From Pseudonocardiales bacterium (lineage in GTDB: Bacteria; Actinomycetota; Actinomycetes; Mycobacteriales; Pseudonocardiaceae): a DNA stretch of 64,000 nt. Position numbers and translations under genes: made by a program. Shown here in pieces: positions 11,001 to 48,018 of this stretch (the first letter of the stretch is position 1; each line of letters begins with the position of its first letter). The notes below the pieces were generated by a model. That model had not been told where the DNA came from. It saw only the letters and a program-made list of their open reading frames with translations, and ran no database searches. The DNA lies in contig JAFAUB010000022.1 in the NCBI GenBank assembly GCA_019243635.1, positions 1 through 64,000 on the forward strand, given 5' to 3'.

Positions 11001-14000
11001 CTGGTGTGCGAGCTGTTCGCCGAGGTGCTGGGACTGCCCGGCGTCGGCGTCGAGGACGACTTCTTCGACCTGGGCGGACACTCGCTGCTCGCGACCCGGC
11101 TAGCCGCCCGGATCCGGGCTACTCTCGACGTCGAGCTGGAGCTGCGCGCCCTGTTCGAGACCCCCACCATCGCCGGGCTGGCCGCCCGTCTGGACAGCGC
11201 CGGGCCGGGCCGGCTGGCGTTGACGCGATATGAGCGCCCCGATGTGGTGCCGTTGTCGTTCGCGCAACGCCGCCTGTGGTTCCTGCACCAGCTCGAAGGC
11301 GCCGGTCCCACCTACAACATCCCGTTGGCGCTGCACCTTCGCGGAGAGGTGGACCGCGAGGCGTTGCGCGCCGCGCTGGGCGATGTGGTGGCCCGCCACG
11401 AGAGTCTGCGCACGATCTTCCCCGCCGGCGCCGGCGTGCCGTGCCAGCTGGTCTTGGACGTCGAAACGGGGTGCCCACCGTTGACGGTGACCGAGACGGC
11501 TGCCACCCGGCTGAGTGAGAGGGTGGCCGCCGCGGCCGGGCACGGGTTCGACATCGCCACCGAGACACCGTTACGGGCGGAGCTGTTCGTGCTCGCTCCC
11601 GATGAGCAGGTACTGCTGCTCGTGATCCACCACATCGCCGGTGACGGCTGGTCCATCGGCCTGTTGTCGGCCGATCTGGCCGCCGCCTACGCCGCCCGCC
11701 GCGAAGGCCGACCACCGGGGTGGGCACCGTTGCCGGTGCAGTACGCCGACTACACCTTGTGGCAGCACCGGCTGCTCGGCGACCACGCCGACCCGGACAG
11801 CCTGTTCGCCGCCCAGGTCGCCTACTGGACCAAGGCGCTGGCCGGGCTGCCCGAACAGCTGACGCTGCCCACCGACCGGCCGCGCCCGCCGGTGGCGTCC
11901 TACCGCGGCGGTGTGGTCGAGGTGAGCGTGGACGCCGGACTGCACCACGGGCTCCGGGAGCTGGCCCGCCGCGGCGGGGCGAGTGTGTTCATGGTCCTGC
12001 AGGCCGGCCTGGCCGCGCTGCTGAGCCGGCTGGGCGCCGGTGAGGACATCGCGGTGGGCAGCCCGATCGCGGGGCGTACCGACCAGGCGTTGGACGAGCT
12101 GGTCGGGTTCTTCGTCAACACCCTGGTGCTGCGCACCGACACCTCGGGAGATCCCAGCTTCGCGCAGCTGCTGGCCCGCGTCCGAGAGACCGCGCTGGCC
12201 GCCTACGCGAACCAGGACGTGCCGTTCGAGTATCTCGTCGAAGCCCTCAACCCCAGCCGCTCGTTGGCCCGTCATCCGCTGTGCCAGGTCATGCTGGCGT
12301 TGCACAACACCCCCGAGGTCGACTGTGAGCTGCCCGGGCTGGACGTCACTCCCGTGGGGGCGCACACCGGTGTCGCCAAGTTCGACCTCTCCCTCAGCCT
12401 GCGGGAGCGGCGCGGTGTGGACGGCGGCTCCGAGGGCATCGACGGGGTCGTGGAGTACGCCGACGACCTGTTCGATGCGGCCACGGTCGAGACGATGGTG
12501 GCGCGGTGGGTGCGGTTGCTGGAGGCGGTGGTCGCCGACCCGGGCCGGCCGGTCAGCCGGATCGACATCCTCACCCCGGAGGAACGGGCCCGGTTGCTCC
12601 TCGAGTACAACGACACGGCCGGTGTGGTGCCCCCGGACTGTCTGCCGGTGTTGTTCGAGGCCCAGGCGCGGGCCACACCACAGGCGGCGGCGGTGGTGTT
12701 CGAGGGCACCACACTGACCTACAGCCGGCTCAACTCCCGCGCGAACCGGCTCGCCCATGCGCTGATCACCCGGGGGCTGGGCCCTGAGCGGACCGTGGCG
12801 TTGGCGCTGCCCCGCTCGCCCGCGCTGGTCGTGGCGGTCATGGCGGTGCTCAAGGCCGGGGCGTGCTACCTGCCACTGGACCCGGACTACCCGCCCGAGC
12901 GGATCGGGCTCATGCTCGACGACGCCCGACCGGCCCTGCTGCTGACCGACGCCCAGACCGCGGCGAGTGTCCCCGACGACGCCGCCACGCCGCGGCTGCT
13001 GATGGACGACCCGGACACCGTCACGGAGCTGGGTGAGCACCCGGACACCGACCCCACCGACGCCGACCGCGCCAGCCGCCTGCTGCCTCAGCATCCGGCG
13101 TATGTGATCTACACCTCGGGCTCCACCGGAGCGCCCAAAGGTGTGGTGGTCTGCCACGCCGGTGTCGCCGGTCTCGCCGCGGCGCAGACCGAACGGTTGG
13201 GGGTCGGTGCGGGCAGCCGGGTGCTGCAGTTCGCCTCCCTCAGCTTCGACGCCTCGTTCTGGGAGCTGTGCATGAGCCTGCTGTCGGGGGCGGCCCTGGT
13301 GGTGGCCCCCGCGCAGCGGCTCCTACCCGGGGCGCCGCTGGCCGCGCTGGCCGCCGACCAGCGGGTGACGCATGTGACGGTGCCGCCCTCGGTACTGGCG
13401 GTGCTGGCGCCCGGGGACGGGTTACCGTCGGCGGCGACGGTGGTCGTGGCCGGTGAGGCGTGCCCGCCCGAGCTGGTGGCGACCTGGTCGCCGGGTCGCC
13501 GGATGATCAACGCCTACGGTCCCACCGAGACCACGGTCTGCGCCACCATGAGCGGCCCGCTGGCGCCGGAGACCCAGACGCCCCCACCGATCGGCGGGCC
13601 GATCACGAACATGCGGGCGTACGTGCTCGACGCCGGCCTGGCGCCGGTGCCCCCAGGGGTAGCCGGCGAGCTGTACATCGCCGGAGCCGGGTTGGCTCGA
13701 GGTTATCTGGGCCGGCCCGGGTTGACCGCGCAGCGGTTCGTGGCGGACCCGTTCGGGCCCCCGGGGGGGCGGATGTACCGCACCGGGGACCTGGTCCGCC
13801 GGCGGGCTGACGGGAACCTGGAGTTCGCCGGTCGCATCGACGACCAGGTCAAGATCCGCGGGTACCGGATCGAGCCGGGCGAGATCGAGACCGTGCTCAC
13901 CGCGCACCCCGAGGTCGCGCAGGCCGCGGTCGTCGCCCGCCACGACCGACCCGGAGACCAGCGGTTAGTCGCCTACGTCGTGTCCGCCGGCCCGCGCTGC

Positions 14001-17000
14001 CGAGGGGAGGTGCTGCGGGCCTACCTGCGCGGGCGGTTGCCCGACTACCTGGTGCCCTCGGCGTTCGTGGTGCTGGACGCGCTGCCACTGACACCCAACG
14101 GCAAACTCGACCGCGGCGCGCTACCCGCTCCCGAGCACGGCTGCGCGGGGACCGGACGGGCGCCCAGGACGCCCCAGGAGCAGCTGCTCGCCGAGCTGTT
14201 CGCCGAGGTTCTGGGCGTCACCCGGGTCAGCGTCGAGGACGACTTCTTCGACCTGGGCGGCCACTCGCTGCTGGCCACCCGACTGGTCTCCCGGATCCGC
14301 GCCACCCTCGGCGTCGAGTTGGGGTTGCGTGCCCTGTTCGAGACCCCGACGGTGGCAGGGGTGGCCCTGCACCTGGATGACGCCGGGCCGGCCAGGCCGG
14401 CGTTGACGCGGCAGGAGCGTCCCGACGTGGTGCCGTTGTCCTTCGCGCAACGCCGGCTGTGGTTCCTGCACCAGATGGAGGGCCCCAGCGCCACCTACAA
14501 CATCCCCCTCGCGCTGCGCCTGTCCGGGGTGGTGGACCGGGCGGCGCTGCAGGCCGCGCTGGGCGACGTGGTGGCCCGCCACGAGAGCCTGCGCACGGTC
14601 TTCCCCCCGCTCGGCGGCGTGCCGTACCAGCGGGTGCTGGACGCGCCGAGCGCCTGCCCGACGCTGCACCTCACTGAGACGACCGAGACGGAGCTGCCGC
14701 GAGCGTTGGCCGCCGCGGCGAGGTACGGGTTCGATCTCAGGGTCGAGCCGCCGGTGCGGGCCGAGCTGTTCACCCTGGCACCGGGTGAGCATGCGCTGGT
14801 GGTGGTGGTCCATCACATCGCTGCTGACGGCTGGTCCATGGGCCCCCTGTCACGGGATCTGGCCGCCGCCTATCAGGCGCGTTCGCGGGGTGAAGCGCCG
14901 GGGTGGTCGCCGCTGCCGGTGCAGTACGCCGACTACACGCTGTGGCAGCACCGGCTGCTCGGCGACCAGACCGACCCGGACAGCCTGTTCGCCGCCCAGC
15001 TGGCCTACTGGACCCACGCGCTGGCCGGGCTGCCCGAATGCCTCGTGCTGCCCGCCGACCGGCCCCGTCCGGCGGTGGCGTCCTACCGCGGCGACCACGT
15101 GCCCGTCCGGCTGGACGCGGCGTTGCACCGAGGGTTGCGTGAGCTCGCCCGCCAAGGCGGGGCCAGCCTGTTCATGGTCCTGCAAGCCGGGTTGGCCGCA
15201 CTGCTGAGCAGGCTGGGCGCGGGCAGTGACATCGCGGTGGGCAGCCCGATCGCGGGGCGTACCGACCAGGCGCTGGACGAGCTGGTCGGGTTCTTCGTCA
15301 ACACGCTGGTGCTGCGCACCGACACCTCCGGTGACCCCACCTTCGCGCAGCTGCTCGCCCGGGTGCGGGAGACCGCGCTGGCCGCCTACGCCCACCAGGA
15401 CGTGCCGTTCGAGTACCTGGTCGAGGTCCTCAACCCGACCCGGTCGCTGGCGCACAACCCGCTGTTCCAGGTGCTGTTGGCGGTGCAGAACGCCCCCACG
15501 GACGACTTCGAGCTGCCCGGGCTGGACACCGGTGTCGTGCCGGCGCCGACCGGGACCGCGAAGTTCGACCTGGGACTGAGCCTATGGGAGCAGCACGGCG
15601 GGGGCGGAGAGCCCGCGGGGATCGACGGCGCGCTGGAGTACGCCGGCGATCTGTTCGACCCCGCGACGGCCGAGGCGATCGTGGCGCGCTGGGTGCGGTT
15701 GCTGGAGGCGGCGGTCGCCGACCCGAACCGCCCACTCAGCCGCGTCGACCTGCTGTCCGCACCGGAGCGCCACCGGTTGCTCCTCGACTACAACGACACC
15801 GCGGCCCCGGTGCCCCAGGCCTGTCTACCGGAGTTGTTCCACATCCGGGCGCAGGCGAGCCCGCAGGCCGCGGCGGTGGTCTTCGGTGCTGTCACGCTGA
15901 CCTACGCCCAGCTCAACGCGCGCGCGAACCGGCTCGCGCAGGCACTGATCGCGCGCGGGGTGGGTCCCGAGCAGATCGTGGCCCTGGCGCTGCCCCGCTC
16001 ACCGGAGCTGGTGGTGGCGATCCTGGCGGTCCTCAAGGCCGGGGCGGCCTACCTGCCGCTGGACCTGGACCATCCGGCCGCGCGGGTCGCCTTCATGCTC
16101 GACGACGCCCGACCGGCGTTGCTGCTGAGCAGCGCGGGACTGCTGGACGAGCTACCGGATCACACGCCGATCCCTCGGTTGGTCGTGGACCACCCTGACC
16201 CGGGTGAGTATCCGGACACCGATCCCACCGACGCTGACCGCACCACCCCCCTGCGGGCTGAGCATCCGGCGTATGTGATCTACACCTCGGGTTCCACCGG
16301 TCAGCCCAAAGGTGTCCTGGTCAGCCACGCCGGCCTGGCCAACCTGGCCGCGGCGCAGAGTGACCGGTTCGGCATCGATGCGCGCAGCCGGGTGCTGCAG
16401 TTCGCCTCACCCAGCTTCGATGCGTCGGTCTCGGAGCTGTGGGTGACCCTGCTGTCCGGCGCGACGCTGGTGCTCGCCCCGCCGGAGCAGCTGCTACCCG
16501 GAACGCCGCTGAGCACGCTGGCCGAAGACCAGCGGGTGACGCATGTGACGATGCCGCCCTCGGCGCTGGCGGTCCTGCCGGCCGAGAACGGTCTACCACC
16601 AGCGGTGACGGTGGTCGTGGCCGGTGAGGCGTGCCCGGCGGAGCTGGTCGCGGCCTGGTCCCCGGGCCGGCGGATGATCAACGCCTACGGTCCCACCGAG
16701 ACCACCGTGTGCGCCACCACGAGCGGTCCGCTGTCAGCTGAGACACAACCTGGGACGCGGATGCCGGTGCCGATCGGCCGGCCGATCGCCAACACCCGGG
16801 TGTATGTGCTCGACGCCGGCCTGCAGCCGGTACCCGCCGGGGTGGCGGGTGAGCTGTACATCGCCGGGGTGGGGCTGGCGCGCGGCTATCTGCGCCGGGC
16901 GGCCCTGACCGCGCAACGGTTCATCGCCGACCCGTTCGGCGCGCCTGGTGGGCGGATGTACCGGAGCGGTGATCTGGTCCGTCGGCGCGGTGACGGGAAT

Positions 17001-20000
17001 CTCGAGTTCGTCGGCCGGGCTGATGACCAGGTCAAGGTCCGCGGTTACCGGATCGAGCCGGGTGAGATCGAGACGGTGCTCGCCGCGCACCCGGGTGTGG
17101 CGCGGGCGGCGGTCATCGCCCGGGCGGACCGGGCCGAGGACACCCGGCTGGTGGGGTACGTCGTGGCTGCCGGCGGCCCCGCCCATGCTCGTGACGAACA
17201 GAGGGAACGAGACCGGGTCGGCGAGTGGCGAGAGCTGTACGAGTCGCTGCACGCCACCTCGGAGATGACAGCGTTCGGGCAGGACTTCGCCGGGTGGAAC
17301 AGCAGCTACGACGGTCAACCGATCCCCCTGGTGCAGATGCGCGAGTGGCGGGAGGAGACCGTCACCCGGATCCTGTCCCTGCGGCCCCGGCGGGTGCTGG
17401 AGATCGGTGTCGGTACGGGGTTGCTGCTGTCCCAGCTCGCACCCGGGTGTGAGACCTACTGGGCGACCGACTTCTCGGCCCCGGCGATCGAGATCCTGTC
17501 GGCCTATCTCGAGCGGTACTCCGACCTGGCGCAGCGGGTGGTGCTCCGCACCCAGGGTGCGCACGACACCCGCGGGCTGCCGGTGGGGTCGTTCGACACC
17601 GTGGTTCTCAACTCTGTCGTCCAGTACTTCCCCAGCAGCGACTATCTGCTCGAGGTGCTCGAGGGGGCGTTGCGTCTGGTCGCCCCCGGCGGCAGGGTGT
17701 TCATCGGTGATGTGCGCAACCTGCGGCTGCTGCGCCCGCTGGCCACCGCCGTGGCGTTGCACCGGGCCGGGGACTCGACCGACACCGCGACACTGCGCCG
17801 CGCGGTCGAACGCGCCATCCGGGCGGAGAAGGAACTGCTGGTCGACCCCGAGCTCTTCACCGCCCTGCACGACCGGCTCGCCGATATCGGCGGGGTGGAC
17901 ATCCGGATCAAACGCGGACGCCACCACAATGAGCTGACCTGCTACCGCTACGACGTCATCCTGCACAAACACCCGGTCACGCCGATATCACTGGGCGGGG
18001 CGCCCCGGCTGGGTTGGGGACAGCAGATCAGCGGACTGTCCGCATTGACCGACCACCTGACCGCCGCGCGCCCGGAGATGCTGCGCCTCACCGGTGTGCC
18101 CAACCACCGCATCACCCACGATGCCGCCGCCGCGCGAGCACTGCACGCCGGTCACCGGCCCGCCGACCTGCGCAAGGGGCGCCCCGACGGCTCCGCTGCC
18201 CTGGACCCCGAGGCGTTGCACGCGCTGGGTGACCGGTGCGGCTACTGGGTGGGCGTCACCTGGTCGACAGGCGTCCCCGACGCCATGGACGTCGTGTTCG
18301 CCCACCCAGCCCGGATGGCATCGGGTGTTCCCGTCGACCTGTACATCCCCGAGCGCGCCGCCCAGCCGCCGCTCTCGTCGTTCACGAACACCCCGAGCAC
18401 CGCGCGGGACACCGGCGCGCTGACCGGCGAGCTACGCGAGTACCTGCGCGAACGTCTGCCCGAGTACATGGTGCCCGCCGCGCTGGTCGTGCTGGATGCG
18501 TTGCCGGTGACGCCCAGCGGCAAACTCGACCGGGGCGCGCTGCCCGCACCCGAGCCCGACCGGGTCGGCGCCGGACGGGGACCCGGCACACCGCAGGAGC
18601 AGTTCTTGTGCGAGCTGTTCGCCGACGTGCTGGGCCGCTCCAACGTCGGTGTCGACGACGACTTCTTCGACCTCGGCGGGCACTCCCTGCTCGCCACCCG
18701 TCTCCTCGCCCGGGTACGCGCCGGCCTCGACGTCGAGCTCGAGCTACGCCACCTGTTCGAGACCCCCACCGTCGCCGGACTGGCCACCCGGCTGCGCGAG
18801 GCCGGCCCGGCCCGGCCGGCGCTCACCCGGTGTGAGCGTCCCGATCCGTTGCCGTTGTCGTTCGCGCAACGCCGGCTGTGGTTCCTCCACCAGATGGAGG
18901 GCCCCCATGCCACCTATCACATGCCGTTGGCGTTGCGCCTGCGCGGAACGCTGGACCGCGAAGCGTTGCAGGCCGCGCTCGGTGACGTCCTGGCCCGTCA
19001 TGAGAGCCTGCGTACGGTCTTCCCGCAGCGTGAGGGCGTGCCATACCAGCACGTCCTGGATGCGCAGACGGCCTGCCCGCAGCTGCGCGTCACCCGGACG
19101 ACCGAGACGGAGCTGCCGGGCAGACTGGCCGCCGCGGCACAGCACGGGTTCGATCTCGCCACCGAGCCACCGGTACGAGCCGAGCTGTTCACTCTAGAAC
19201 CCCACGAGCATGTGCTGCTGGTGCTGGTGCACCACATCGCCGCTGACGGCTGGTCGATGGGCCCGCTGTCACGCGACCTGGCCGCCGCCTACACCGCCCG
19301 CCGCCGAGGCCAGGCGCCGGGGTGGGCGCCGCTGCCGGTGCACTACGCCGACTACACGCTCTGGCAGCACCGGCTGCTCGGTGACCACACCGACCCGAAC
19401 AGCCTGTTCGCCGCCCAACTGGCCTACTGGACCCAGGCGCTGGCCGGGCTGCCCGAACACCTGCGGCTACCCACCGACCGCCCCCGCCCGGCGGTGGCCT
19501 CCTACCGCGGCGACTACCTCACCGTTCGGCTGGCCCCCACGATGCACCATGGGCTGCTGGGCCTGGCGCGCCGAGCCGGAGCCAGCCTGTTCATGGTCCT
19601 GCAAGCCGGGCTCGCGGCGCTGCTGTCCCGACTGGGCGCGGGCGAGGACATTCCGCTGGGCAGCCCGATCGCCGGGCGCACCGACCAGGCTTTGGACGAG
19701 CTGGTCGGGTTCTTCGTCAACACGCTGGTGCTGCGCACCGACACCTCCGGTGACCCCACCTTCGCGCAGCTGCTCGCCCGGGTGCGGGAGACCGCGCTGG
19801 CCGCCTACGCCCATCAGGACGTCCCGTTCGAGTACCTCGTCGAGGTCCTCAACCCCACCCGGTCGCTGGCCCACCACCCGCTGTTCCAGATCATGCTGGC
19901 GCTGCAGAACGCTCCTGAAGCGGACTTCGAGCTACCCGGGCTGGATACCGGCTTCGTACCGGCACCGACCGCCACCGCCAGGTTCGACCTGTCCCTCAGC

Positions 20001-22811
20001 CTGTCCGAACGGCGCGGCCCGGACGGCGGCCCCGAAGGCGTCGACGGGGTCGTCGAGTACGCCACCGACCTGTTCGACCCCGCCACCATCGAGGCACTCC
20101 TCGCGCGCTGGACGCGTCTGTTGGAGGCGGCGGTCGCCGACCCGGACCGGCCGATCAGCCGCATCGACATCCTCGCTCCGACAGAACGCACCCGGCTGCT
20201 CCTCGACTACAACGACACCGCCCACCCGATCCCCGCTGCCGGCCTGCCGGCGTTGTTCGAGACCCGGGTGCGGGCCACACCCGACGCGGTGGCCGTGGTG
20301 TCCGGGAACACCACGCTGACCTACCGCCGGCTCAACGCCAGAGCCAACCGGCTCGCGCATGAGCTGCTCGCCCGGGGGGTGGGCCGGGAGAGCGCGGTGG
20401 CGGTGCTGCTGGAACGGTCCGCTGAGCTGGTGGTGGCGACTCTGGCGGTGGTCAAGGCGGGGGGGACCTATGTGCCGTTGGACCCGCGGTACCCACCGGC
20501 ACGGATGGATCTGGTCATCGCCGAGACCGGAGCGTCGGTTCTGGTCACCGACTCGGGGCCGCGCGGGCGCCGGCTTCCCGACCGCGCGCAGGTCGTCGTC
20601 CTCGACGCGCAGGCACGTGGTGCCGAACCGGATCCCGGTGACCCGGGGATCGCCTGCGATCCCCGGCAGCTCGCCTACATCATGTACACCTCGGGCTCGA
20701 CAGGAGCGCCGAAGGGCGTCGCGATCACCCATCGCGACGTGGCGGAGCTGGCACTGGACCCCTGTTGGCGCGGCGGTGCGCACCAGCGGGTGCTGGTGCA
20801 CTCCCCCTCGGCGTTCGACGCATCGACGTATGAGCTGTGGGTTCCGCTGCTGAACGGCGGACAGGTCGTGGTGGCCCCCGCAGGCGAGCTGGACATCGCC
20901 GTGGTGGAGCGGGTGATCACCGAGAGCCGTGTCACGGGGTTGTGGCTGAGCGCGGGTCTGTTCAGCCTCATGGCCGAGCAGTGCCCCGGCTGCTTCGTCG
21001 GGGTGCGTGAGGTGTGGACCGGGGGTGAGGTGGTGTCGGCCACCGCGGTCGCCCGGGTGCTGGACGCGTGCCCCGCGACCAGGGTGGTCAACGGTTACGG
21101 ACCCACCGAGACCACGACGTTCGTCGCGTGTCATCCGATGCGTGCACCGTATGAGGCCGCACACACCGTGCCGATCGGCCGGCCGATGGCCAACACCCGG
21201 CTGTATGTGCTCGACCCCGGCCTGCGTCCACTGTCCCCGGGTGTGTCGGGGGAGCTGTACATCGGCGGGGCCGGGCTGGCGCGAGGCTACCTGCACCAGC
21301 CCGGTCTGACCGCGCGGCGGTTCGTGGCCGACCCCTACGGCCCGCCGGGTGGGCGCCTGTACCGCACCGGGGATCTGGCCCGCTGGCGCGACGGCAACCT
21401 GGAGTTCGTCGGCCGCGCTGATGAGCAGGTCAAACTTCGCGGGTTCCGCATCGAGCCGGGAGAGATCGAAACGGTGCTCGCCACACACCCCGACGTCGCG
21501 CGCACCGCGGTCATCGTCCGCCAGGAGGGGCCCGAGGACAAGCGGCTCGTCGCCTATGTGGTGCCCGCTCCGGACACCGCGCCGCCACCGGAACCGTTAC
21601 GCGAGTATCTGCGCCGGCGTCTGCCCGACTACATGGTGCCCTCGGCGCTGGTGATGCTCGATGCGCTGCCGTTGACGCCCAACGGCAAACTCGACCGCGA
21701 CGCGCTGCCCACCCCGGAGCTCGACGCGGCCGGCACCGGCCGGGCACCGAGGACACCGCAAGAACAGCTGCTGTGCGAGCTGTTCGCCGAAGCGCTGGGC
21801 CTGACCCAGGTCGATATCGACGACGACTTCTTCGACCTGGGCGGGCACTCGCTGCTCGCCAACCGCCTGGTCGCCCGGGTACGCGCCACCTTCGGCGTCG
21901 AGGTGGGACTTCGCGGTCTGTTCGAAGCCCCGACCGTGGCCGGGCTGGCGGCGCGTTTGGACATGGCGGACCCCCGGGGCGCGTTCGACGTGATACTGCC
22001 CTTGAGAACCCAGGGCCGGCACTCGCCGCTGTTCTGCATACACCCCGGCGGCGGAGTCAGCTGGTCCTACTGCGGGCTGATGAGACATCTTCGCCCGGAC
22101 CATCCGATCTATGGGGTGCAGGCGCGTGGCCTCGCTCGGCCAGAGCCGCTCCCGGCCTCTATCGAGCAGATGGCGGCTGACTACGCCGACCGGATACACA
22201 AGGTCCAGCCGGCCGGGCCGTACTGTCTTCTCGGCTGGTCCTTCGGGGGCATCGTCGCCCACGCCGTCGCGACCGAGCTCCAACAGCGCGGCGAACAGGT
22301 CGCCCTGCTCGGCGTGCTCGACGCTTACCCGGCTTGCGGACTGTACTCGCGCGAGGACACGCCCGCACTCGAGGAGCGGGACATTCTTGCCGCCATGCTC
22401 GGTGCTGACGCGGATGATAGGGAGGGTGAACCGTTGACGTTCGCCAGGGCACTGGAGGTCCTCCGCGGTCAGGACAGGACTTTCGCGGATCTCGACGAGC
22501 GCTACCTCGAGGCTATCATCAAGGTCTGGATCAATAACTACCATATCGCGGTCGACTTCACTCCCGGCGGGTTCCGCGGGAACCTGCTGTTGTTCAGCTC
22601 CACGATCGACCGACCTGAGGACGCGCCCACACCTGACGCGTGGAAGCCATATATCGACGGTGAGATTGAGTCCCACCCTATCGTCAGCACGCACGACCGC
22701 ATGATGACGGAGCCGGCCTCGACGGCCCAGATCGGGCCGATCCTGGCGGCCAGACTCGAAGAAGTCGCTAACCACACATCTACCAACACATCAAGGAGCG
22801 CTGAGCTGTGA
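8043..22811 (+). CDS. Non-ribosomal peptide synthetase, four modules with N-methyltransferase and thioesterase
   Basis: This 4922-residue protein completes and releases the peptide. The ATG at 8043 overlaps the previous stop and starts exactly at the first C domain ([10 protein letters not shown], the type that accepts a D-residue donor after an E domain). Approximate nucleotide positions are C 8060-9380, A 9440-10960, T to 11180; C 11235-12580, A 12640-14140, T to 14360; C 14420-15760, A 15820-18560 with an N-methyltransferase inserted at about 17215-18000 (LEIGVGTG), T to 18790; C 18845-20190, A 20245-21715, T to 21960; TE 21985-22790 (GWSFGG serine). Pocket residues read by eye are D-V-Q-F-A-A-H-V-A (proline-like), D-A-W-T-V-A-A-V-C (Phe), D-A-S-T-V-A-A-V-C (Tyr or beta-hydroxy-Tyr, N-methylated here) and D-A-Y-W-W-G-G-T-F (Val). 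The first assignment is the least certain. The stop overlaps the GTG of the MbtH gene. Confidence 0.96.
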
Positions 22812-23036: not shown

Positions 23037-24284
23037 ATGTCCAGCGGCACTGAGCTGCCCGAAGCCGTCGAGAACAACGACGGTGGCTTCGACGAGGTCA
23101 TCCTGGCGTTGGCGACGCCGGAGTGTCGTCAGGACCCCTACCGGCTCTATGCGCGGATGCGCCGCGAGGACCCGGTCTATCGCAGCTCACAGGGGATCTG
23201 GTACCTGACCCGCTACGCCGACGTCGAGGCCGCCCTGCGCGACCTGCGGCTGTCCAACGACGGGGAACGCATGACACGGGCGTTGGCGGCTCGGCAGGGA
23301 GCCCCGCAACGCTTCAGTAGGCTCACGCGACGGCTCGGCCGGGTCATGACGACCACCGACCCGCCCGACCACGCCCGGCTGCGCAGGCTGGTCAGCAAGG
23401 CGTTCACCGCTCGACGGGTCCAGGGCCTTCGGCCGCGGCTCCAGGCGATCGTGGATGGGCTCCTCGACGCCGCGGTCGCGGCCGGGTCCACCATGGATCT
23501 CATCGCGGCGCTGGCCTCCCCGCTGCCGGGCACTGTGATCTGCGAGCTGTTCGGCATTCCGCGCGGCGACACCGAGCGCGTCCGGGCATGGTTTCACCAG
23601 TTGAGGGCGCCGAACACGGTGCAGGGTGTCGAGCGCATCGAGCTGATGGTGGAGCAGTTCGAGGGCTACCTCACCGACCTCATCCGCCGACGGCGGGCCC
23701 GACCGGCCGACGATATCCTCAGCGCGCTGGTCACGGTGGCCGAGCGTGATGACCAGCTCACCGATGAGGAGCTGCTGTCGACCTGCCTCATGCTGGTCAC
23801 CGCCGGGGACCAGGCGACCACCGACCTGATCGGCAACGGCACCCTCGCGCTGCTGCGTCACCCCGACCAGCTGCGCCGACTGCAGCGGGACCCGACGCTG
23901 ATCCGCTCGGCGGTCGACGAGCTGGTGCGCTACGACAGTCCCTCCCAGATCATCATCCGCGTCGTCGCGGAAGCGGTGGAGATCGGCGGACGGACGCTGG
24001 CTGAGGGCGAGCTCGTACATCTCGTGCTGGCCGCCACCAATCGTGACCCAGAGCGTTTCCCGGACCCGGACCAGCTCGACCTGGGCCGCCCCGATAACCG
24101 GCATCTGAGCTTCGGCAACGGGCCGCACTTCTGTCTGGGTGCGCCACTGGCCCGCCTCGCGGGTGAGGTCGCGATCGGCACGCTCATACGGCGTCTGCCG
24201 GGGCTGCGCCTGAGTACCGAGACCGTGCAATGGAAGCCGAACCCGATGCTGCGCGGCCCCGCCTGCCTGCCCGTCGCCTACTGA
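23037..24284 (+). CDS. Cytochrome P450 (NRPS tailoring enzyme)
   Basis: This is a 415-residue soluble bacterial P450. The haem-ligand loop FGNGPHFCLGAPLAR, the K-helix ExxR (ELVRY) and the I-helix AGDQATT are all present. In the I-helix the usual acid/alcohol pair (AGxET or AGHETT) is replaced by D-Q-A-T, which can affect oxygen activation or substrate choice. It starts 13 bases after the MbtH stop, so it is in the synthetase operon. It may hydroxylate a bound or released peptide residue or cross-link aromatic residues, since Phe and N-methyl-Tyr are adjacent in the predicted peptide. Which of these it does is inference; the family assignment is firm. Confidence 0.95.
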   Translation: MSSGTELPEAVENNDGGFDEVILALATPECRQDPYRLYARMRREDPVYRSSQGIWYLTRYADVEAALRDLRLSNDGERMTRALAARQGAPQRFSRLTRRLGRVMTTTDPPDHARLRRLVSKAFTARRVQGLRPRLQAIVDGLLDAAVAAGSTMDLIAALASPLPGTVICELFGIPRGDTERVRAWFHQLRAPNTVQGVERIELMVEQFEGYLTDLIRRRRARPADDILSALVTVAERDDQLTDEELLSTCLMLVTAGDQATTDLIGNGTLALLRHPDQLRRLQRDPTLIRSAVDELVRYDSPSQIIIRVVAEAVEIGGRTLAEGELVHLVLAATNRDPERFPDPDQLDLGRPDNRHLSFGNGPHFCLGAPLARLAGEVAIGTLIRRLPGLRLSTETVQWKPNPMLRGPACLPVAY

Positions 24285-30479: not shown

Positions 30480-32513
30480 TCACCAGATCCTGACGCGTTG
30501 GCCGGGGGGGCGGAACAGCTTGTCACCCTGCTTGACGTCGAATGCTGTGTAGTACTCGGGCAGGTTGCTGACGACGCCGTTGGCGCGGAACTCATCCGGG
30601 CTGTGGGGATCACTGAGCAGCTGCACGCGCAGGTCCTCGTTCCGCGTCTTGCCGCGCCACACCTGCGCCCACCCCAGGAAGAAGCGCTGCTCGCCGGTGA
30701 ACCCGTTCATCACGGAGGCTCCTCGGCCGCCGAGCGACAGTCGGTAGGCGCGGAGCGCCACCGTGAGGCCGGACAGGTCGGCTATGTTCTCGCCCAGGGT
30801 CAGCTCGCCGTTGACGTGCTCGCCGGGCAAGGGTTCGTAGGCCGAGTACTGCGCGGCCAGGGCGGTGGTCCGGGCGGTGAACCGCTGCACGTCCTGCGGG
30901 GTCCACCAGTCGCGGAGGTTGCCGGTCCCGTCGTACTTGCGGCCCTGGTCGTCGAAGGCGTGGCTGATCTCATGACCGATCACCGCGCCGATTCCGCCGT
31001 AGTTGACCGCGTCGTCGGCGGTCGGGTCGAAGAACGGCGGCTGCAGGATCGCGGCGGGGAAGGTGATGTCGTTGCGCGTCGGGTTGTAGAAGGCGTTGAC
31101 CGTCTGCGGGGTGGTGAACCACTCAGCGCGGTCCACCGGCTTGCCGAGCCGGTCGAGATCCCGCTGGTACTCGAGCGCGGACGCGCGCACCTCGTTGCCC
31201 ACCAGATCGTCGCGGGCGACCCTGAGCTTCGAGTAGTCCTTCCACTCGCTCGGATAGCCGATCTTCACGTCGAGCTTGCCGAGCTTGTCCTCGGCCTGCG
31301 CCCTGGTCGCGGCGCTCATCCAGTCCAAGCCGTCGATGGACGAGCGGTAGGCGTCGATCAGCCTGCCGACCAGCGCGTCGACTCGCCGTTTGGCATCCGG
31401 CGGGAAGTACCGTTGCACGTATCGCCGGCCGAGCAGATCACCCATCGCGCTGTTGACGGCGGTGACTCCCCTTTTCCAGCGGGGGCTCATCTCCTGCTGC
31501 CCGGCCAGGTCGCGGCCGCGGAACTCGAAGCGCGCCGTGACGAAGTCGTTGCTCAGGTAGGGCGCTAGGTCGTCGATGAGCCTGAACTTCAGGTACGAGC
31601 GCCAGTCCGCCGGTGGCACGGTGGTCAGCGCGGTGCCCAGGGCGGTGAAGAAACCGGGCTCGGCGACGACGAAGTCGGGGGTGTGCACGCCGGCCGCGTC
31701 GAGGTAGGTCTTCCAGTCCAGCCCCGGGGTCCGCGCGGTGGCATCGGCGACGGTGAACTTGTTGTAGGTCGCCGTCGCGTCCCGGTTCTGCACGGCGGTC
31801 CACTGGGCCTCGGCGAGGCGGTTCTCCACGGCGAGCACCTGACCGGCCGCGGCATCCGGAGCAGCGACACCGGCCAGACCCAGCATGCGCGCGACGTAGG
31901 CCCGGAGCTGGTCGCGGATCGTCACGAACTGCGGGTCGGTCTTCAGGTAGTAGTCCCGGTTGGGCAGGGTGAGCCCGCTTTGCGTGACGTCCGGTAGGTA
32001 CGCTGAGGCGTTCTTGGCGTCCTGGTCGACGGACAGCGCGATGGGGCTGGAGCTACCGGTTCTGGCGGTCTCGGCGAAGTATCGGAGGAGGTCCGCGGGG
32101 CTGGTGAGCGCGTCGATGCGGTCCAGTGACGCCTTCAGCGGAGTGATGCCGAGCGCGTCGAGCCGCGCGGTGTCCATGAAGCTCGCGTAGAAGTCGCCGA
32201 TCTGCTGGTCCGGCGAGCCGGCCGCGCCGTGGCGGGCCGCGCTGTCCTGGACGATCGTTCGCAGGTTCTGGTCGGCTTGGTCGGCCACCGCCGTGAACGC
32301 GCTGTAGCTGGCCCGATCGGCCGGGATGGCGGTGGTGCGCAGCCACTGGCCGTTCGCGAACCGGAACAGGTCGTCCTGCACTCGCACCTTTCGGTCGTAC
32401 CCGCTCAGCAGCAGCCCCGACCCCAGCTGCGGCGGCGGGGCGCCCGCGCAGGCCGCCACCACCCCCACCAGCGTCATCGCGAGCACACCGACGCGCCACC
32501 GAGACCGAGTCAC
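30480..32513 (-). CDS. M13 family (neprilysin/PepO-like) zinc metallopeptidase lipoprotein
   Basis: This 677-residue secreted endopeptidase has a lipobox-like signal (LVGVVAAC-AGAP, Cys near residue 22), then a large M13 N-terminal domain and a C-terminal catalytic domain. The zinc motif VIGHEISHAFDDQG and the third ligand ENIADLSG are intact, as is NAFYNPTRNDITFPAAILQPP. The end (PPGQRVRIW) matches the family's conserved C-terminal Trp. It lies 89 bases upstream of the lasso precursor on the same strand, so read-through is possible. M13 enzymes are general peptide degraders and are not a known lasso component; a role in lasso maturation or immunity is only inference. Confidence 0.93.
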   Translation of the reverse strand: MTRSRWRVGVLAMTLVGVVAACAGAPPPQLGSGLLLSGYDRKVRVQDDLFRFANGQWLRTTAIPADRASYSAFTAVADQADQNLRTIVQDSAARHGAAGSPDQQIGDFYASFMDTARLDALGITPLKASLDRIDALTSPADLLRYFAETARTGSSSPIALSVDQDAKNASAYLPDVTQSGLTLPNRDYYLKTDPQFVTIRDQLRAYVARMLGLAGVAAPDAAAGQVLAVENRLAEAQWTAVQNRDATATYNKFTVADATARTPGLDWKTYLDAAGVHTPDFVVAEPGFFTALGTALTTVPPADWRSYLKFRLIDDLAPYLSNDFVTARFEFRGRDLAGQQEMSPRWKRGVTAVNSAMGDLLGRRYVQRYFPPDAKRRVDALVGRLIDAYRSSIDGLDWMSAATRAQAEDKLGKLDVKIGYPSEWKDYSKLRVARDDLVGNEVRASALEYQRDLDRLGKPVDRAEWFTTPQTVNAFYNPTRNDITFPAAILQPPFFDPTADDAVNYGGIGAVIGHEISHAFDDQGRKYDGTGNLRDWWTPQDVQRFTARTTALAAQYSAYEPLPGEHVNGELTLGENIADLSGLTVALRAYRLSLGGRGASVMNGFTGEQRFFLGWAQVWRGKTRNEDLRVQLLSDPHSPDEFRANGVVSNLPEYYTAFDVKQGDKLFRPPGQRVRIW

Positions 32514-43463: not shown

Positions 43464-44759
43464 CTATCGCGTAGCGCGCGTGGCGGGTCGGCGATGCGCG
43501 ACCCGGGCACCGTCATGAGTCTCCGCCGGTCCCCCTTGCCCCGGTTCTTCTCGGCCCGGTTCTCCGCGGCCCGGTTCTCCGCGACGCAGTGCGAGGTACC
43601 GCCGCCGGGCGGTGTGGAACCCCCGCATCGCGGTGCGGACGGTGGGGATCTGGGTGGCGAGGTGCATCTGGTAGCGCCATGGTGGCTGGGCTCCTTGGCG
43701 CGCCGCCATGGAGTAGGCGAAGGCCACCGCGTCCTCCCGGCTGAGGTAGCGGTCAGCGCGCTCGAACCACGCCATGCTGGTGCGTGCTCCGGCCTGGATC
43801 GGCCGCAGCGCCGCGCGGCCTCGCCGGTCATAGTCCGCCAGCGCGGTGGCAGTCTCGTCGTGTTGGTAGAGGCTCTGGGCGAGCATGACCGCGTCGATCA
43901 TCGCTAGCCTGGTGCCGGACCCGAGGGTGAAATGGGTGGTGTGGGCGGCGTCGCCGGCGAGTACCAGGTTGCCGTGGCACCAGGTGTTGTTGGTCACCTG
44001 GGTGAAGCGCAGCCACCGCGCTGGCTCGCCGCGGGACTGGCTGATCAGCGAGTGGCCATCGAGGGCATGGTCGAAGATCTTCTCCAGTAGCTGGACGCCG
44101 TCCTCGCTGCTGAGGGAGTCGAACCCGAGTGTCTCCCAGGTCTGCTGGGCGCATTCCACGATGCAGGTGCTGGTCCCGGCGGACGAGGGGTAGGCGTGGA
44201 ACCAGATCCACCCGGCTGAGGTCTGCTCGAAGGCGAAGGTGAAGCTGTCGAAGACCTTGTCGGTGCCCAGCCACAGGTAGGGGTTCCCGCCGACGTCCAC
44301 CCGGGAGCCGAAGTCCTCGCTGTGGCGGGTCCGCATCCGGCTGTTGGCGCCGTCGCAGATCACCACGAGGTCGGCGTCGGCCAGCGTGGAGAGGTCATCG
44401 ACCTCGTGGCGGTACTGGATGTCGATCCCGAGCTCGGTGGCTCGCTGACCGAGGATGTCGAGCAGGGTCGCGCGGCCCACGCTGAAGCCGTACCCGGGCA
44501 GGTAAGCGGTCTGCTCGCTGCGCAGGATCACCTGTTGTTCCTGCCACAGCACAGATTCCGCGCGTATTGCCCGAGCGCTCTCCGGGTCGTTGCGGAACAA
44601 GATGTCGAGTAGGTCGTCCCAATACACCACGCCCCAGCCGTAGGTGGCTCCGGGGGGATCCCGTTCGATGACGGTGATGTCGTGGCCCGCGTCGCGCCGT
44701 TTCGCCGAGATGGCGAAGTACAGTCCGGCCGGTCCGCCGCCGATGCACACGATTCTCAT
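43464..44759 (-). CDS. FAD-dependent monooxygenase (aromatic hydroxylase type), candidate RiPP-tailoring enzyme
   Basis: This 431-residue flavoprotein hydroxylase belongs to the group A type. The dinucleotide loop IVCIGGGPAGLYFAI is at residue 3 and the FAD-ribityl motif NLVLAGDAAHTTHFTLGSG near 280. The fold-specific GWGVVYWDDLLDILFRND resembles salicyloyl/anthraniloyl-CoA hydroxylases and related tryptophan-modifying enzymes. The C-terminal tail has a low-complexity GEPGR repeat that is probably dispensable. The ATG overlaps the ABC exporter stop (ATGA), so the two are one translational unit. With the Trp-rich peptide just upstream, hydroxylation of peptide aromatic residues is an attractive but unproven role. 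Confidence 0.9.
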   Translation of the reverse strand: MRIVCIGGGPAGLYFAISAKRRDAGHDITVIERDPPGATYGWGVVYWDDLLDILFRNDPESARAIRAESVLWQEQQVILRSEQTAYLPGYGFSVGRATLLDILGQRATELGIDIQYRHEVDDLSTLADADLVVICDGANSRMRTRHSEDFGSRVDVGGNPYLWLGTDKVFDSFTFAFEQTSAGWIWFHAYPSSAGTSTCIVECAQQTWETLGFDSLSSEDGVQLLEKIFDHALDGHSLISQSRGEPARWLRFTQVTNNTWCHGNLVLAGDAAHTTHFTLGSGTRLAMIDAVMLAQSLYQHDETATALADYDRRGRAALRPIQAGARTSMAWFERADRYLSREDAVAFAYSMAARQGAQPPWRYQMHLATQIPTVRTAMRGFHTARRRYLALRRGEPGRGEPGREEPGQGGPAETHDGARVAHRRPATRATR

Positions 44760-46615
44760 GTCACTGCTCCGTTCCCTACGGATGGGGTTGCTGTGCTGGC
44801 GCGTGTTGGGGGGTGGTGCAGATGGTAGAGGTGGGCGTACTGGTTGTTGTTGGTGAGGAGCTGGGTGTGGGTGCCGGTTTCGGTGATGCGGCCGTGGTCG
44901 AGGTAGATGATGTGGTCGGCGTCGGTGACGGTGAGCAGGTTGTGGGAGATGAGGATGGTGGTGCGTCCGGTGATCAGGCGGCGCAGCGGGGTGAGGATGC
45001 GGTCGCTGGTGTGGGCGTCGAGGCTGGTGGTGGGTTCGTCCAGGAGCAGGATGGGGGCATCGCGGATCATGGCGCGGGCGATGGCGATGCGTTGGCGTTG
45101 CCCCCCGGACAGCAGTCGGCCGCGTTGGCCGACCCGGGTGTCGTAGCCGTGGGGCAGGGCGGTGATGAACTCATGGGCCTCGGCGGCCTCGGCGGCGGCC
45201 ACCAGCTCGGCGGTGCCAGCCTGGGGGCGGCCGGCGGTGATGTTCTCGGCGATGGTGCCATCGAGCAGCAGGGTCTCCTGGAGCACGATGGCGATGTTGG
45301 CGCGCAGCTGGGCGGGGTCCAGTTCGCGCAGGTCGACGCCATCCAGGGTGATGCGGCCGGTGGTGGGGTCATAGAAGCGCAGCAGCAGCTTGAGCAGGGT
45401 GGTCTTGCCGGCGCCGCTGGCGCCGACGATGGCGGTGGTCTGCCCGGGCTCGGCGGTGAGGCTGAGACCGCTGAGGACCTCGGTGGTGGTGTCGGGGTAG
45501 GTGAAGCCGACCCCCTCCAGGCGCAGCCGCCCGCGCGCCCGACCCAACGGGCGCGGGTGCGCGGGCGCGCTGACCCGGGGCTGCTCATCGAGCAGCTCCA
45601 GGATCCGTTCTGCGGCCGCGACGGCGCCGAACATCGAGGTGGACAGCGCGCCCAGGCCCTGCACCGGCTGGTAGAGCTGGGCCAGGAACACCAGGAAGGC
45701 CAGCAGCCCACCCAGGGTGATACGCCCCGCGGTCAGCTCCCAGATCCCCACCCCCAGGATGGTCAGCACCCCCAGCACCTGGATCAGGTCGACCACCGGG
45801 GAGAACATCGCCCCCAGCCGGGTGGCGGCCAGCTCGGCGCGCACACTACCCAGGCTCTGCTCCGCGAACCGCTCCACCTCCGCGGCCTGGCGGCCGTAGG
45901 CCTGGATGAGGGCGACGTTACCCAGGCTCTCCTCCGCCACCACACTGATCGACCCCGCCCGACGACGGACCTCCCTGGAGGCGACCTTGATCCGACGGGC
46001 GAACACCCGCGCCGCGGCGGCGAACACCGGCACCGCCACCAACGACGCCAACGCCAGCCGCCAGTCCAGCACGAACACCACACCGCCGAACACCACGACC
46101 TTCACCACGTTGGCGACCAGCCCGACGATCCCGGAGAGCACCACCGTCTCGATCGCGGCCACATCCCCGGTCAACCGGGACAGGATGTCACCCAGCCGAC
46201 GACGGTCGAAAAAACCCACCGACAACGTATGCAGATGCTCGAACACCCTCGTGCGCAACCGGTGCAGGAAGTTCTCCCCCACCCACGCCCCCAGGTACTG
46301 CCCCGCGAAACCCAACCCCCCCACCACCAGAGTGATCCCCACGAACGCCCCCGCCACCGGCACGAACGCCGAGAAGTCCCGCGGCAGCAACACCCGGTCT
46401 ACCAACACCTTGAACAACAACACCGCCCCGGCATCCACCAGGGGGCTCACCACCACCAACACCAGACTCAGCCACAACCACCGCCACAACGGCCGCGCAT
46501 CAGGCGAGAACCGGCGAAACACCTCCCGCAGCCCCGCCGCCGGAGCCACTTCCACCAAACCCCCCACATCACCCCCCGGCCCCACACCCCCCGATGACCG
46601 CAGCACCCCCCACAC
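44756..46615 (-). CDS. ABC exporter (fused membrane and ATPase domains)
   Basis: This 619-residue type IV ABC half-transporter has six helices from about residue 45 to 330, then a nucleotide-binding domain with Walker A VGASGAGKTTL, signature LLSGGQRQRIAIARA, Walker B PILLLDEPT and H-loop ISHN. It has no C39 peptidase domain, so it does not cleave a leader. The GTG at 46615 is the longest start; its ribosome site is poor, and later GTGs in the Gly/Val-rich first 25 residues are possible. It overlaps the monooxygenase gene and lies downstream of the repeat peptide and a hairpin on the same strand, so it is the likely exporter of that peptide. Confidence 0.93.
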   Translation of the reverse strand: MWGVLRSSGGVGPGGDVGGLVEVAPAAGLREVFRRFSPDARPLWRWLWLSLVLVVVSPLVDAGAVLLFKVLVDRVLLPRDFSAFVPVAGAFVGITLVVGGLGFAGQYLGAWVGENFLHRLRTRVFEHLHTLSVGFFDRRRLGDILSRLTGDVAAIETVVLSGIVGLVANVVKVVVFGGVVFVLDWRLALASLVAVPVFAAAARVFARRIKVASREVRRRAGSISVVAEESLGNVALIQAYGRQAAEVERFAEQSLGSVRAELAATRLGAMFSPVVDLIQVLGVLTILGVGIWELTAGRITLGGLLAFLVFLAQLYQPVQGLGALSTSMFGAVAAAERILELLDEQPRVSAPAHPRPLGRARGRLRLEGVGFTYPDTTTEVLSGLSLTAEPGQTTAIVGASGAGKTTLLKLLLRFYDPTTGRITLDGVDLRELDPAQLRANIAIVLQETLLLDGTIAENITAGRPQAGTAELVAAAEAAEAHEFITALPHGYDTRVGQRGRLLSGGQRQRIAIARAMIRDAPILLLDEPTTSLDAHTSDRILTPLRRLITGRTTILISHNLLTVTDADHIIYLDHGRITETGTHTQLLTNNNQYAHLYHLHHPPTRASTATPSVGNGAVT

Positions 46616-46683: not shown

Positions 46684-46731
46684 GTGGGCGGTGGCCTCCA
46701 CCCAGCGAACTGGGTGGAGGCCACCGCCCAC
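46684..46731 (-). terminator. Perfect 22-bp hairpin between repeat peptide and exporter
   Basis: Bases 46684-46705 are perfectly complementary to 46710-46731, leaving only a four-base CGAA loop (a stable GNRA-like closing context). The hairpin starts 17 bases after the peptide stop. No T-run follows on the minus strand, so it may terminate only partly, protect the peptide mRNA 3' end, or both. This placement is common where a precursor must be made in excess over its processing genes. Confidence 0.85.
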
Positions 46732-46748: not shown

Positions 46749-46940
46749 TCAGCAGCCACCCCATCCACCCCATCCACTCGAGTATCCCCAGCCGCCCCAG
46801 TGGTGGCCGCCGCCCCAGCCACCCCAGTGGTGGCCGCCGCCCCAGCCACCCCAGCCGTGGCCGCCGCCCCAGCCACCCCAGCTGCTGTAGCCTTCCTTGT
46901 CGCGGTCGTAGCCGCTACGGAAGATTGTCGCGATCTTCAT
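46749..46940 (-). CDS. Trp/Gly/His-repeat peptide, candidate RiPP precursor
   Basis: This 63-residue peptide has a strong ribosome site (GGGAGAGG, just before the ATG at 46940). Residues 1-20 form a leader-like, charged segment (MKIATIFRSGYDRDKEGYSS). Residues 21-63 are four nine-residue units and a partial fifth: WGGWGGGHG, WGGWGGGHH, WGGWGGGHH, WGGWGYSSG, WGGWGGC. This gives ten Trp, five His and a single C-terminal Cys. The underlying DNA has a 27-bp periodicity with synonymous changes between units, so selection on protein is likely. It is followed by a perfect hairpin, an ABC exporter and a flavin monooxygenase, and preceded by an ECF sigma factor. I recognise no family. Alternatives are a metal-binding or self-assembling structural peptide. 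Confidence 0.8.
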   Translation of the reverse strand: MKIATIFRSGYDRDKEGYSSWGGWGGGHGWGGWGGGHHWGGWGGGHHWGGWGYSSGWGGWGGC

Positions 46941-47361
46941 TTCCTCTCCCTCTTCCTTTGTCAGGAACTCCTCTTCTCACGAGGACGTTAGTCGCGGCCC
47001 CACCGTCAGCGGTAAGCAGCCGACCAGGAGACCGGTAAGGTGTGCGACTTCGGCTTGCGGTTATCCTACAGTGACGGTCAGCCCCGGCGGTGCCGGGTCG
47101 CTCCGCGCCGACGACCCCTTAGTCATGGGAACCCCCTGCCCTCCGATGGCTGGCGACCCGCCTGGCTTCGCCCGACAGGCCCTCGGACGAGAGTTCCCCG
47201 GCCGGCCGGTCTGTCGTCATATGCCGCTACTATCGTAACCTTTTTGTTATCTCTTCGTCGACTCCTCGACTAATGAGAGTCTCGGCGCCGCTGCGCTGAT
47301 ACATCATGAACGGAAATCACCCGGTTGGCCGCTGCCGCGTAGCGTCGTGAGCCGCCGGGCC
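46941..47361. other. Long leader/promoter region upstream of the repeat peptide
   Basis: These 421 bases contain no convincing gene on either strand. An A/T-rich pocket at about 47218-47255 (TATCGTAACCTTTTTGTTAT on the plus strand) stands out from the GC-rich surroundings and is the best place for a promoter. Purine-rich sequence just above 46940 is the peptide's ribosome site. I could not identify an ECF-type -35/-10 pair with confidence. Confidence 0.45.
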
Positions 47362-48018
47362 TCATACCGCGCACCGGGTGTGGACGCGGCAGCGGTCGTC
47401 ATCGCTAGTCTGCCGCCCCAGCCCGTGTTCGGTGAGCCTGTCCCGAAGCTGCCGCAAGGCCCGGGCCCGGGTGGGCCCGATCGCACCGGGCGGGATTCCG
47501 GCGGTGCGAGCGACCTCCGCGTAAGGTCGGGGATGGTCGGTGAACAGCACTCGCAGCAGGGTCCGCTGGCGGGGTGACAACTCCTCGACGAGGCTCCACA
47601 GCGTCCGCGCGTCGTCAGCCTCGATGGCCCGCTGCTCTGGGCCCATCGACGGGTCGGCGACGGTGTCGGCCACCGTTTCGATGAGGTCCGAGGTGGGCTT
47701 CGGGTGGCGCAGGATGCGCAGGCACTCATGGCGAGCGGTGGTGACCAGCCATCCACCCAACCGTTCCGGCCACAGCACGCGGCGGGCGTTCTCGGCCAGC
47801 CGCAGCCACGTCGTCTGCACCGCGTCGAACGCGTCGGCGTCCTGTAGCCGAAACGACCGCACCGTCGCCGACACGAGCTTGTCGTACCGGTGCACCACTT
47901 CGTCCCAGGCCACCGGGTCACCGTCGCTCGCGCGTGCCAGCAGCTCGGCGACGTTACCCGCCGCGCCGACGCGGGTGTGGGTTTTCTCCGGGTTCGCGAT
48001 GGTGGCTGTCATTGGCAT
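47362..48018 (-). CDS. ECF-type RNA polymerase sigma factor
   Basis: This 218-residue sigma-70 family protein has region 2 (DEVVHRYDKLVSATVRSFRL, then DAFDAVQTTWLRLAENARR and GWLVTTARHECLRILR) and region 4 (LSPRQRTLLRVLFTDHPRPY, then EVARTAGIPPGAIGPTRARA), typical of SigE-like ECF factors. No anti-sigma gene adjoins. It is transcribed towards the repeat-peptide/ABC/monooxygenase genes, 421 bases away on the same strand, so it may control them; that link is inference from position. Confidence 0.93.
   Translation of the reverse strand: MPMTATIANPEKTHTRVGAAGNVAELLARASDGDPVAWDEVVHRYDKLVSATVRSFRLQDADAFDAVQTTWLRLAENARRVLWPERLGGWLVTTARHECLRILRHPKPTSDLIETVADTVADPSMGPEQRAIEADDARTLWSLVEELSPRQRTLLRVLFTDHPRPYAEVARTAGIPPGAIGPTRARALRQLRDRLTEHGLGRQTSDDDRCRVHTRCAV

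Follow-up and report, generated by a model that had tools for sequence, protein, structure and literature searches.

Does the short open reading frame (ORF) at 46749..46940, on the minus strand of the 64,000-nucleotide stretch of actinobacterial DNA analysed here (the window), encode a genuine peptide and, if so, what becomes of that peptide? The answer that we favor, with a probability of roughly 0.6, is that the ORF would be the precursor of an exported RiPP-like peptide, whose Trp residues an enzyme would hydroxylate before export.

The repeat peptide and its gene

The ORF specifies 63 amino acids plus a stop and has known relatives. Its product, which starts MKIATIF, consists of MKIATIFRSGYDRDKEGYSS and a core of W/G repeats. 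Residues 1-20 (46881..46940, minus) form a putative leader segment with the alignment motif M[KR]I..IF..G, the leader/core boundary being our own reading. The core, on the same strand, comprises WGGWGGGHG (unit 1, 46854..46880), WGGWGGGHH twice (unit 2, 46827..46853; unit 3, 46800..46826), the diverged WGGWGYSSG (unit 4, 46773..46799) and a partial WGGWGGC (unit 5, 46752..46772). A Shine-Dalgarno-like GGGAGAGG lies 5′ of the ATG, the purine-rich stretch at 46941..46955 (minus) reading GAAGAGGGAGAGGAA.

The preliminary description of this DNA gave the coordinates and the peptide correctly, together with its ten Trp, five His and single terminal Cys, and left unmentioned the strand (minus), the leader and the hairpin, exporter and flavin monooxygenase described below. 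It counted four exact or near-exact nonapeptides plus a partial fifth; three near-exact units and the fifth stand, but the fourth diverges after WGGWG. Synonymous differences between the units were taken there as a sign of selection on the protein. There are none among the three exact units, whose codons are identical except for the Gly/His of position 9, and such differences are confined to units 4 and 5; the identical codons speak for a recent 27-bp duplication, not for selection on synonymous sites. Between the sister peptides of two other loci (L074 and L075) there are two synonymous and two non-synonymous changes, giving a pN/pS of ∼0.22 that is drawn from very few sites. The suggestion that repeat number may vary was borne out, with 10, 9 and 3 core Trp at three sister loci of one genus (L078, L081 and L080, respectively), and it is the encoded peptide, beyond the mere DNA repeat, that recurs in relatives, both as peptides of the window's genus with the same leader and among 100 related loci. 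To judge from such sequence comparisons, the window peptide is a real gene product and not a chance ORF.

The window peptide has no family match in Pfam, NCBIfam or PADLOC, and PADLOC likewise has none for the window monooxygenase described below. When four peptides of the genus, the window's included, were compared with NCBIfam at E 1 there was again no match, and against Pfam two of the four gave chance-level matches only. All Rfam matches were sub-threshold and were dismissed as chance, those of the adjacent hairpin being to miRNA families and those of the repeats to Prion_pknot (20.4 bits versus a cut-off of 39).

The cassette and its hairpin

On the minus strand the gene order is: ECF-type sigma factor – peptide – hairpin – MsbA-like ABC exporter – flavin monooxygenase. 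The sigma factor gene (47362..48018, minus), upstream of the peptide, has an uncertain link to the cassette; a homologue sits at the corresponding position in one relative (L112) and another (57%) lies on the contig of a Trp-rich peptide without a linked enzyme (L209). The exporter (44756..46615, minus) has the Pfam domains ABC_membrane and ABC_tran, and its family suggests that it works in the direction of export; apart from these domains Pfam finds in it only weak P-loop families and no C39 peptidase domain. Its stop is overlapped by the start codon of the monooxygenase (43464..44759, minus), a class A flavin (FAD) enzyme resembling VioD and salicylyl-CoA 5-hydroxylase. After the monooxygenase comes a ROK-family gene, relatives of which lie near the monooxygenase in four other loci of the genus (L112-L115), with none found in L116. 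The Pfam scan of nine window neighbours revealed no leader-binding domain (RRE). A TetR regulator was considered as a feature common to the window and Streptomyces loci and was rejected: identity is 28% and orthologue-like matches are confined to each group.

Just 3′ of the peptide stop lies a perfect 22-bp hairpin (46684..46731, minus; shuffle z-score −7.76), a putative terminator or attenuator. Between peptide and exporter, the strongest local structure is a long stem in 28 of the 29 exporter-type loci listed; in the twenty-ninth (L112) a wrong frame left only 21 bases for the test. The stem sequences differ from genus to genus. Under a strict rule (a stem of at least 13, one mismatch; background 0.356 per kb over all loci), a stem lies within 250 nt of the peptide stop in 35 of 56 loci, that is, 22 of 29 with an exporter and 13 of 27 without one. 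Shuffle z-scores range from −7.76 to −1.56 in 13 of 14 stretches, the remaining one, from Frankia (L121), having no stem and a score of +1.12. The stem between peptide and exporter fits a terminator past which a share of the transcripts would extend into the exporter and enzyme genes.

Identity of the monooxygenase

Profile search of the window monooxygenase against solved chains places VioD first (E 4.1e-56), and VioD is also closest to its predicted fold (E 1.1e-32; mean pLDDT 77.8, with residues 398-431 below 50), the top four fold matches all being VioD, followed by kynurenine 3-monooxygenase (KMO). Pfam PF01494 scores 49.4 bits against a cut-off of 22. By modelled fold and sequence profile, then, the enzyme is a class A flavin monooxygenase of the VioD/KMO type. 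VioD hydroxylates an indole ring. NCBIfam puts salicylyl-CoA 5-hydroxylase (NF006101, PRK08255) at 388.2 bits ahead of VioD (NF053547) at 204.8 bits. Both were rejected as equivalogs, the respective cut-offs being 1078 and 620; with both scores so far below, the substrate cannot be read from the sequence and we file the enzyme under neither name. Plasmid relatives of the monooxygenase are less than 60% identical among the best 15 of 99 records, and in the one Pseudonocardia plasmid locus inspected none of the nine annotated features is a repeat peptide.

Trp-rich and Tyr-rich peptides in the window's genus

Of 11 genomes of the genus, the window's included, 10 have an exporter with 77-81% identity to that of the window; the eleventh (G010; 87% complete, 370 contigs) has only distant ABC proteins and no monooxygenase match at E 1e-60. 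In the 19 regions examined around exporter matches of the genus, the close exporters go with short peptides that have the N-terminal pattern M[KR][IV]xx[IV]F in common and are of two kinds. One is Trp-rich (the window, L028, L029, L035 and L032, the last cut by a contig edge) and the other Tyr-rich (L023-L027, L030 and L031; for example, MRVSDVFTPG...YYEDYYDGGGYY...). The monooxygenase adjoins all five Trp loci versus none of the seven Tyr loci; in one of the latter (L025) the sequence stops 291 bases beyond the exporter, which leaves its downstream region unseen. In six aligned peptides of the genus M1, I3, I6, F7 and G10 are invariant and the core is variable. This common N-terminal motif with a variable core is the anatomy of a precursor, and the motif may serve as a recognition leader.

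Of 386 genomes of the family, five contained one such Tyr-rich peptide, and each of the five belongs to the window's genus. Domain scans of the neighbours were made in three Tyr loci (L027, L030 and L031). Several Tyr loci are flanked by genes of the molybdenum-cofactor type (MoeA, MobA-like, aldehyde ferredoxin oxidoreductase and formate-dehydrogenase-like), and L030 has a mannosyltransferase-type neighbour only. More distant exporters, with 62-65% (L033, L034, L036, L037) or 54-56% identity (L038-L041), are preceded by other low-complexity short ORFs, some charged and MSxRPWDW...-like, others MGDEVVTGYFKSFDRAL...-like.

In two loci (L072 and L073) a Trp peptide directly precedes the monooxygenase with no exporter; their genomes have an exporter at their own Tyr loci (L031 and L030). 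A search of the 11 genomes with a profile built from six Trp peptides (E 0.01) gave matches in 8 of them and brought to light a further locus (L213), in which a Trp peptide is followed at the contig edge by the start of the monooxygenase. Four Trp-repeat peptides of the genus have neither a linked exporter nor a linked monooxygenase: L209 (4551-4805), the degenerate L210 (G005, contig C140), L211 (6995-7246) and the weak L212 (3200-3370, E 0.007), the three other than L210 coming from G010 (C62), G003 (C11) and G006 (C203). The stretches that carry them measure 7.9, 5.8, 16.0 and 6.9 kb, three of these contigs being shorter than 8 kb. These peptides count against a strict coupling of peptide and enzyme.

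Recurrence of the pair in actinobacteria

At E 1e-60 the monooxygenase profile finds a match in 285 of the 390 genomes of the family, many of these matches being clearly weaker paralogues. We opened 40 loci from the family and 80 named loci taken as the best of 231 relatives in a single scan of GTDB genomes; with identical enzyme sequences dropped, 100 loci were left, the window's among them. Near-relatives were kept, so that the counts are not of independent events. The loci come from Pseudonocardia, Saccharopolyspora, Frankia, Nocardia, Streptomyces, Geodermatophilaceae and others.

An ORF with at least 6 Trp and at least 10 Gly in 40 aa lies within 3.2 kb of the monooxygenase in 56 of the 100 loci (721 kb), or 55 without L185, whose match is an Arg-rich wrong-frame artefact; in L112 the script likewise chose a wrong-frame ORF, there beside the true peptide. 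The farther flanks, 833 kb in all, hold one such ORF, which is the exporter-linked cassette peptide of L099. Forty loci have an adjacent exporter: 29 pass this criterion, six more have a shorter or Trp-poorer peptide (L080, L108, L142, L168, L186 and L188), four, L115 among them, are cut by the contig end and one (L096, with its exporter in two pieces) has no peptide. The 44 loci that fail the criterion include these six and L096, as well as six others where a repeat protein was detected by other means (L099, L118, L135, L127, L150 and L151), the distant L189 and seven explained by contig edges (L082, L091, L115, L172, L149, L157 and L190); L115, the same contig-end locus as L032, still carries a 25-aa Trp/Gly fragment. 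Ten are peptide-less paralogues that stand apart (92% SH-aLRT) in the enzyme tree (L100, L102-L107, L109-L111), which was midpoint-rooted and used for this grouping only. Three of these (L102, L103 and L107) show neighbouring pairs of the monooxygenase paralogue and no Trp-repeat peptide. The last 13 have no peptide and no such excuse (L076, L088, L089, L090, L093, L095, L132, L134, L159, L165, L180, L184 and L187); several are Saccharopolyspora, and separate inspection of the Streptomyces loci L132, L134 and L187 found no repeat protein.

Over the 61 usable cores (55 of the 56, plus the six poorer ones of exporter type) Gly makes up 45.2% and Trp 25.5%, both being present in each core, with the Trp mostly 2-4 residues apart. 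His occurs in 43 of them, and many contain Asp; some Streptomyces partners are Trp-poor and rich in Gly, Asp, His, Tyr and Phe. Clustering of the neighbouring genes in 81 loci gave the enzyme in 69 and the exporter in 34; the next clusters span 11 loci, one of them a short-chain dehydrogenase, and no widely recurring protease or other tailoring gene appeared.

The N-termini of the peptides are of several types. The window's genus and Saccharopolyspora have an MRIKDVF/MQIKDTF-type N-terminus with an exporter, and MKI- or MQIKD-type leaders are found in L112, L178 and L191. Pseudonocardia, Actinomycetospora and Geodermatophilaceae have a near-leaderless, MGDHWGG-like start, also with an exporter, and in Streptomyces and Nocardia the starts, judged by eye, are signal-peptide-like (Sec-like) and no exporter is present. 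Frankia and Parafrankia have MKATYEAPAL-type leaders, and one of three such Frankia-type peptides (L164) passes the NCBIfam lasso-leader model NF033521 with 24.8 bits against a cut-off of 19; among the nine neighbours of L162 and L164 that were scanned there were no lasso maturation domains or genes. For the window peptide a lasso peptide was rejected, as it has no lasso-type leader and no NCBIfam match at E 1. Three Frankia repeat-peptide loci (L121, L137 and L148) have a large oxidoreductase and an aminotransferase as common neighbours; in L121, the only one domain-scanned, the oxidoreductase carries FMN oxidoreductase and pyridine-nucleotide domains. The pairing of this monooxygenase subfamily with Trp/Gly repeats is thus recurrent in spite of different N-termini, being found in at least six genera with unrelated ones.

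Proposed mechanism and alternatives

In the mechanism that we propose, transcription would yield much peptide and, past the strong hairpin, less of the ABC exporter and flavin monooxygenase. The monooxygenase would hydroxylate the indole rings of the repeated Trp in the cytoplasm and the exporter would afterwards release the peptide, perhaps once an unlinked protease has removed the leader. We infer from the genes that Trp is the substrate, hydroxylation the reaction, export the direction of transport and partial termination the role of the hairpin. The enzyme is the one gene found to accompany the Trp/Gly core across the N-terminal types, which makes this core the most economical choice of substrate for it; among residues with a reactive ring, Trp alone occurs in every one of the 61 cores. 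The 13 unexplained enzyme loci, the four unlinked peptides and the Trp-poor Streptomyces partners weigh against this reading.

The nearest models and structures, salicylyl-CoA hydroxylase, VioD and kynurenine 3-monooxygenase, act on small molecules, and the window enzyme might similarly make or modify a small aromatic compound, for which the Trp/Gly peptide, through Trp stacking, would be a secreted carrier, sponge or scaffold instead of the substrate. We consider this unlikely: other than the enzyme and the exporter, no gene cluster spans more than 11 of the 81 loci, and L072 and L073 hold peptide and enzyme without an exporter. A little less probable again is an unmodified structural or antimicrobial Gly/Trp-rich secreted peptide, with the monooxygenase linked for some other reason. 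The Trp-repeat peptides without a linked enzyme and the 13 unexplained enzyme loci without a peptide would be in keeping with this, but it leaves the recurrence of the pair with unrelated N-termini unaccounted for.

The preliminary description proposed that a Trp pair with His could bind metal, and the copper/zinc-binding octarepeats reported elsewhere (PMC12522110) offer a parallel. The window peptide does have five His beside Gly and Trp, and the frequent His and Asp of the other cores could be read in the same way, through His and backbone amides. As a shared function this fails for the 18 of 61 cores without His, others having Asp, Ser, Asn, Lys or Arg instead, and the domains found in the cassette are not metal-handling ones, so that we regard metal binding as very improbable. 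Assembly and multivalency, which the preliminary description also brought up, may still play a part. We would be still more surprised if the ORF were a leader peptide at whose Trp codons stalled ribosomes control the hairpin and, with it, the exporter and enzyme genes. A trp attenuator has just such an anatomy, a leader peptide with Trp codons and then a hairpin, and the window has a Trp-rich ORF, a strong hairpin and an aromatic-hydroxylase-type gene. Nevertheless, the Streptomyces partners are ∼150-300 aa long with, by eye, signal-peptide-like starts, Frankia-type loci have a lasso-type leader, and Gly is as constant as Trp. Moreover, two unlinked peptides with no exporter or enzyme near also have 3′ stems (L209, −35.2, imperfect; L212, −41.4), and the stretch from Frankia L121 has none.

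Once hydroxylated and exported, the peptide might act as a bioactive compound or might form extracellular material of a redox-active or adhesive kind. Given how freely both the length of the core and the spacing of its Trp vary, we lean towards a hydroxyindole-rich surface or extracellular material. A bolder and doubtful generalization would be that secreted repeat polymers rich in hydroxytryptophan are a class widespread in actinobacteria and form a redox-active, cross-linkable, indole-based extracellular material, with one flavoenzyme lineage recognising Trp-Gly repeats independently of any leader. Such recognition would allow the same core to be combined with a Sec signal, with a leader of the ABC-exporter or lasso type, or with no leader.

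Relation to known systems

In its gene layout the cassette resembles RiPP systems: a short precursor with a putative leader and a variable core stands next to an oxidative enzyme and an ABC exporter, and a strong hairpin comes before the downstream genes. It differs in that its exporter has no C39 peptidase domain (which is not required of all RiPPs), its W/G-repeat core is open-ended, the leader is not common across the family and the Streptomyces partner resembles a Sec-secreted protein. VioD, the hydroxylase of the violacein pathway, belongs to the same flavoprotein class and is the nearest solved structure, but the window enzyme reaches 205 bits against the 620 of its cut-off and has a repeat peptide as partner. 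Salicylyl-CoA 5-hydroxylase is the nearest NCBIfam model, matched over residues 1-354, but the window enzyme lacks the second half of this 768-position model. The flavin-dependent halogenases of RiPP pathways (PMC10858898, PMC12518702, PMC10286304) are likewise flavoenzymes that act on peptides, two of them reportedly on peptidyl Trp; their reaction, however, is halogenation, and their titles and abstract openings name no W/G repeats. With lasso peptides the common ground is the single Frankia-type peptide that passes the leader model, as opposed to the scanned L162/L164 neighbours with no maturation domains and a window peptide without such a leader.

No paper on the pairing of a Trp/Gly peptide with a monooxygenase was found in the open-access literature, most subscription journals lying outside that scope. 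The pairing, which occurs in many soil actinobacteria, suggests an apparently undescribed bacterial route for making and releasing modified Trp-rich peptides. If this is true, it would be a flavin hydroxylase system that modifies peptides whose cores draw on very few residues, unnamed by the Pfam, NCBIfam and PADLOC scans. Its enzyme would follow core composition and not the leader, a point of interest for how such enzymes acquire new partners, and simple two-gene constructs could yield hydroxytryptophan-rich peptides.

Other genes in the window

Elsewhere in the window there is an NRPS gene with condensation, adenylation and carrier domains (16-8046), followed by an ORF of 4974 aa (7887-22811). 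A cytochrome P450 is encoded at 23037-24284 and an M13-family metallopeptidase at 30480-32513 on the minus strand.
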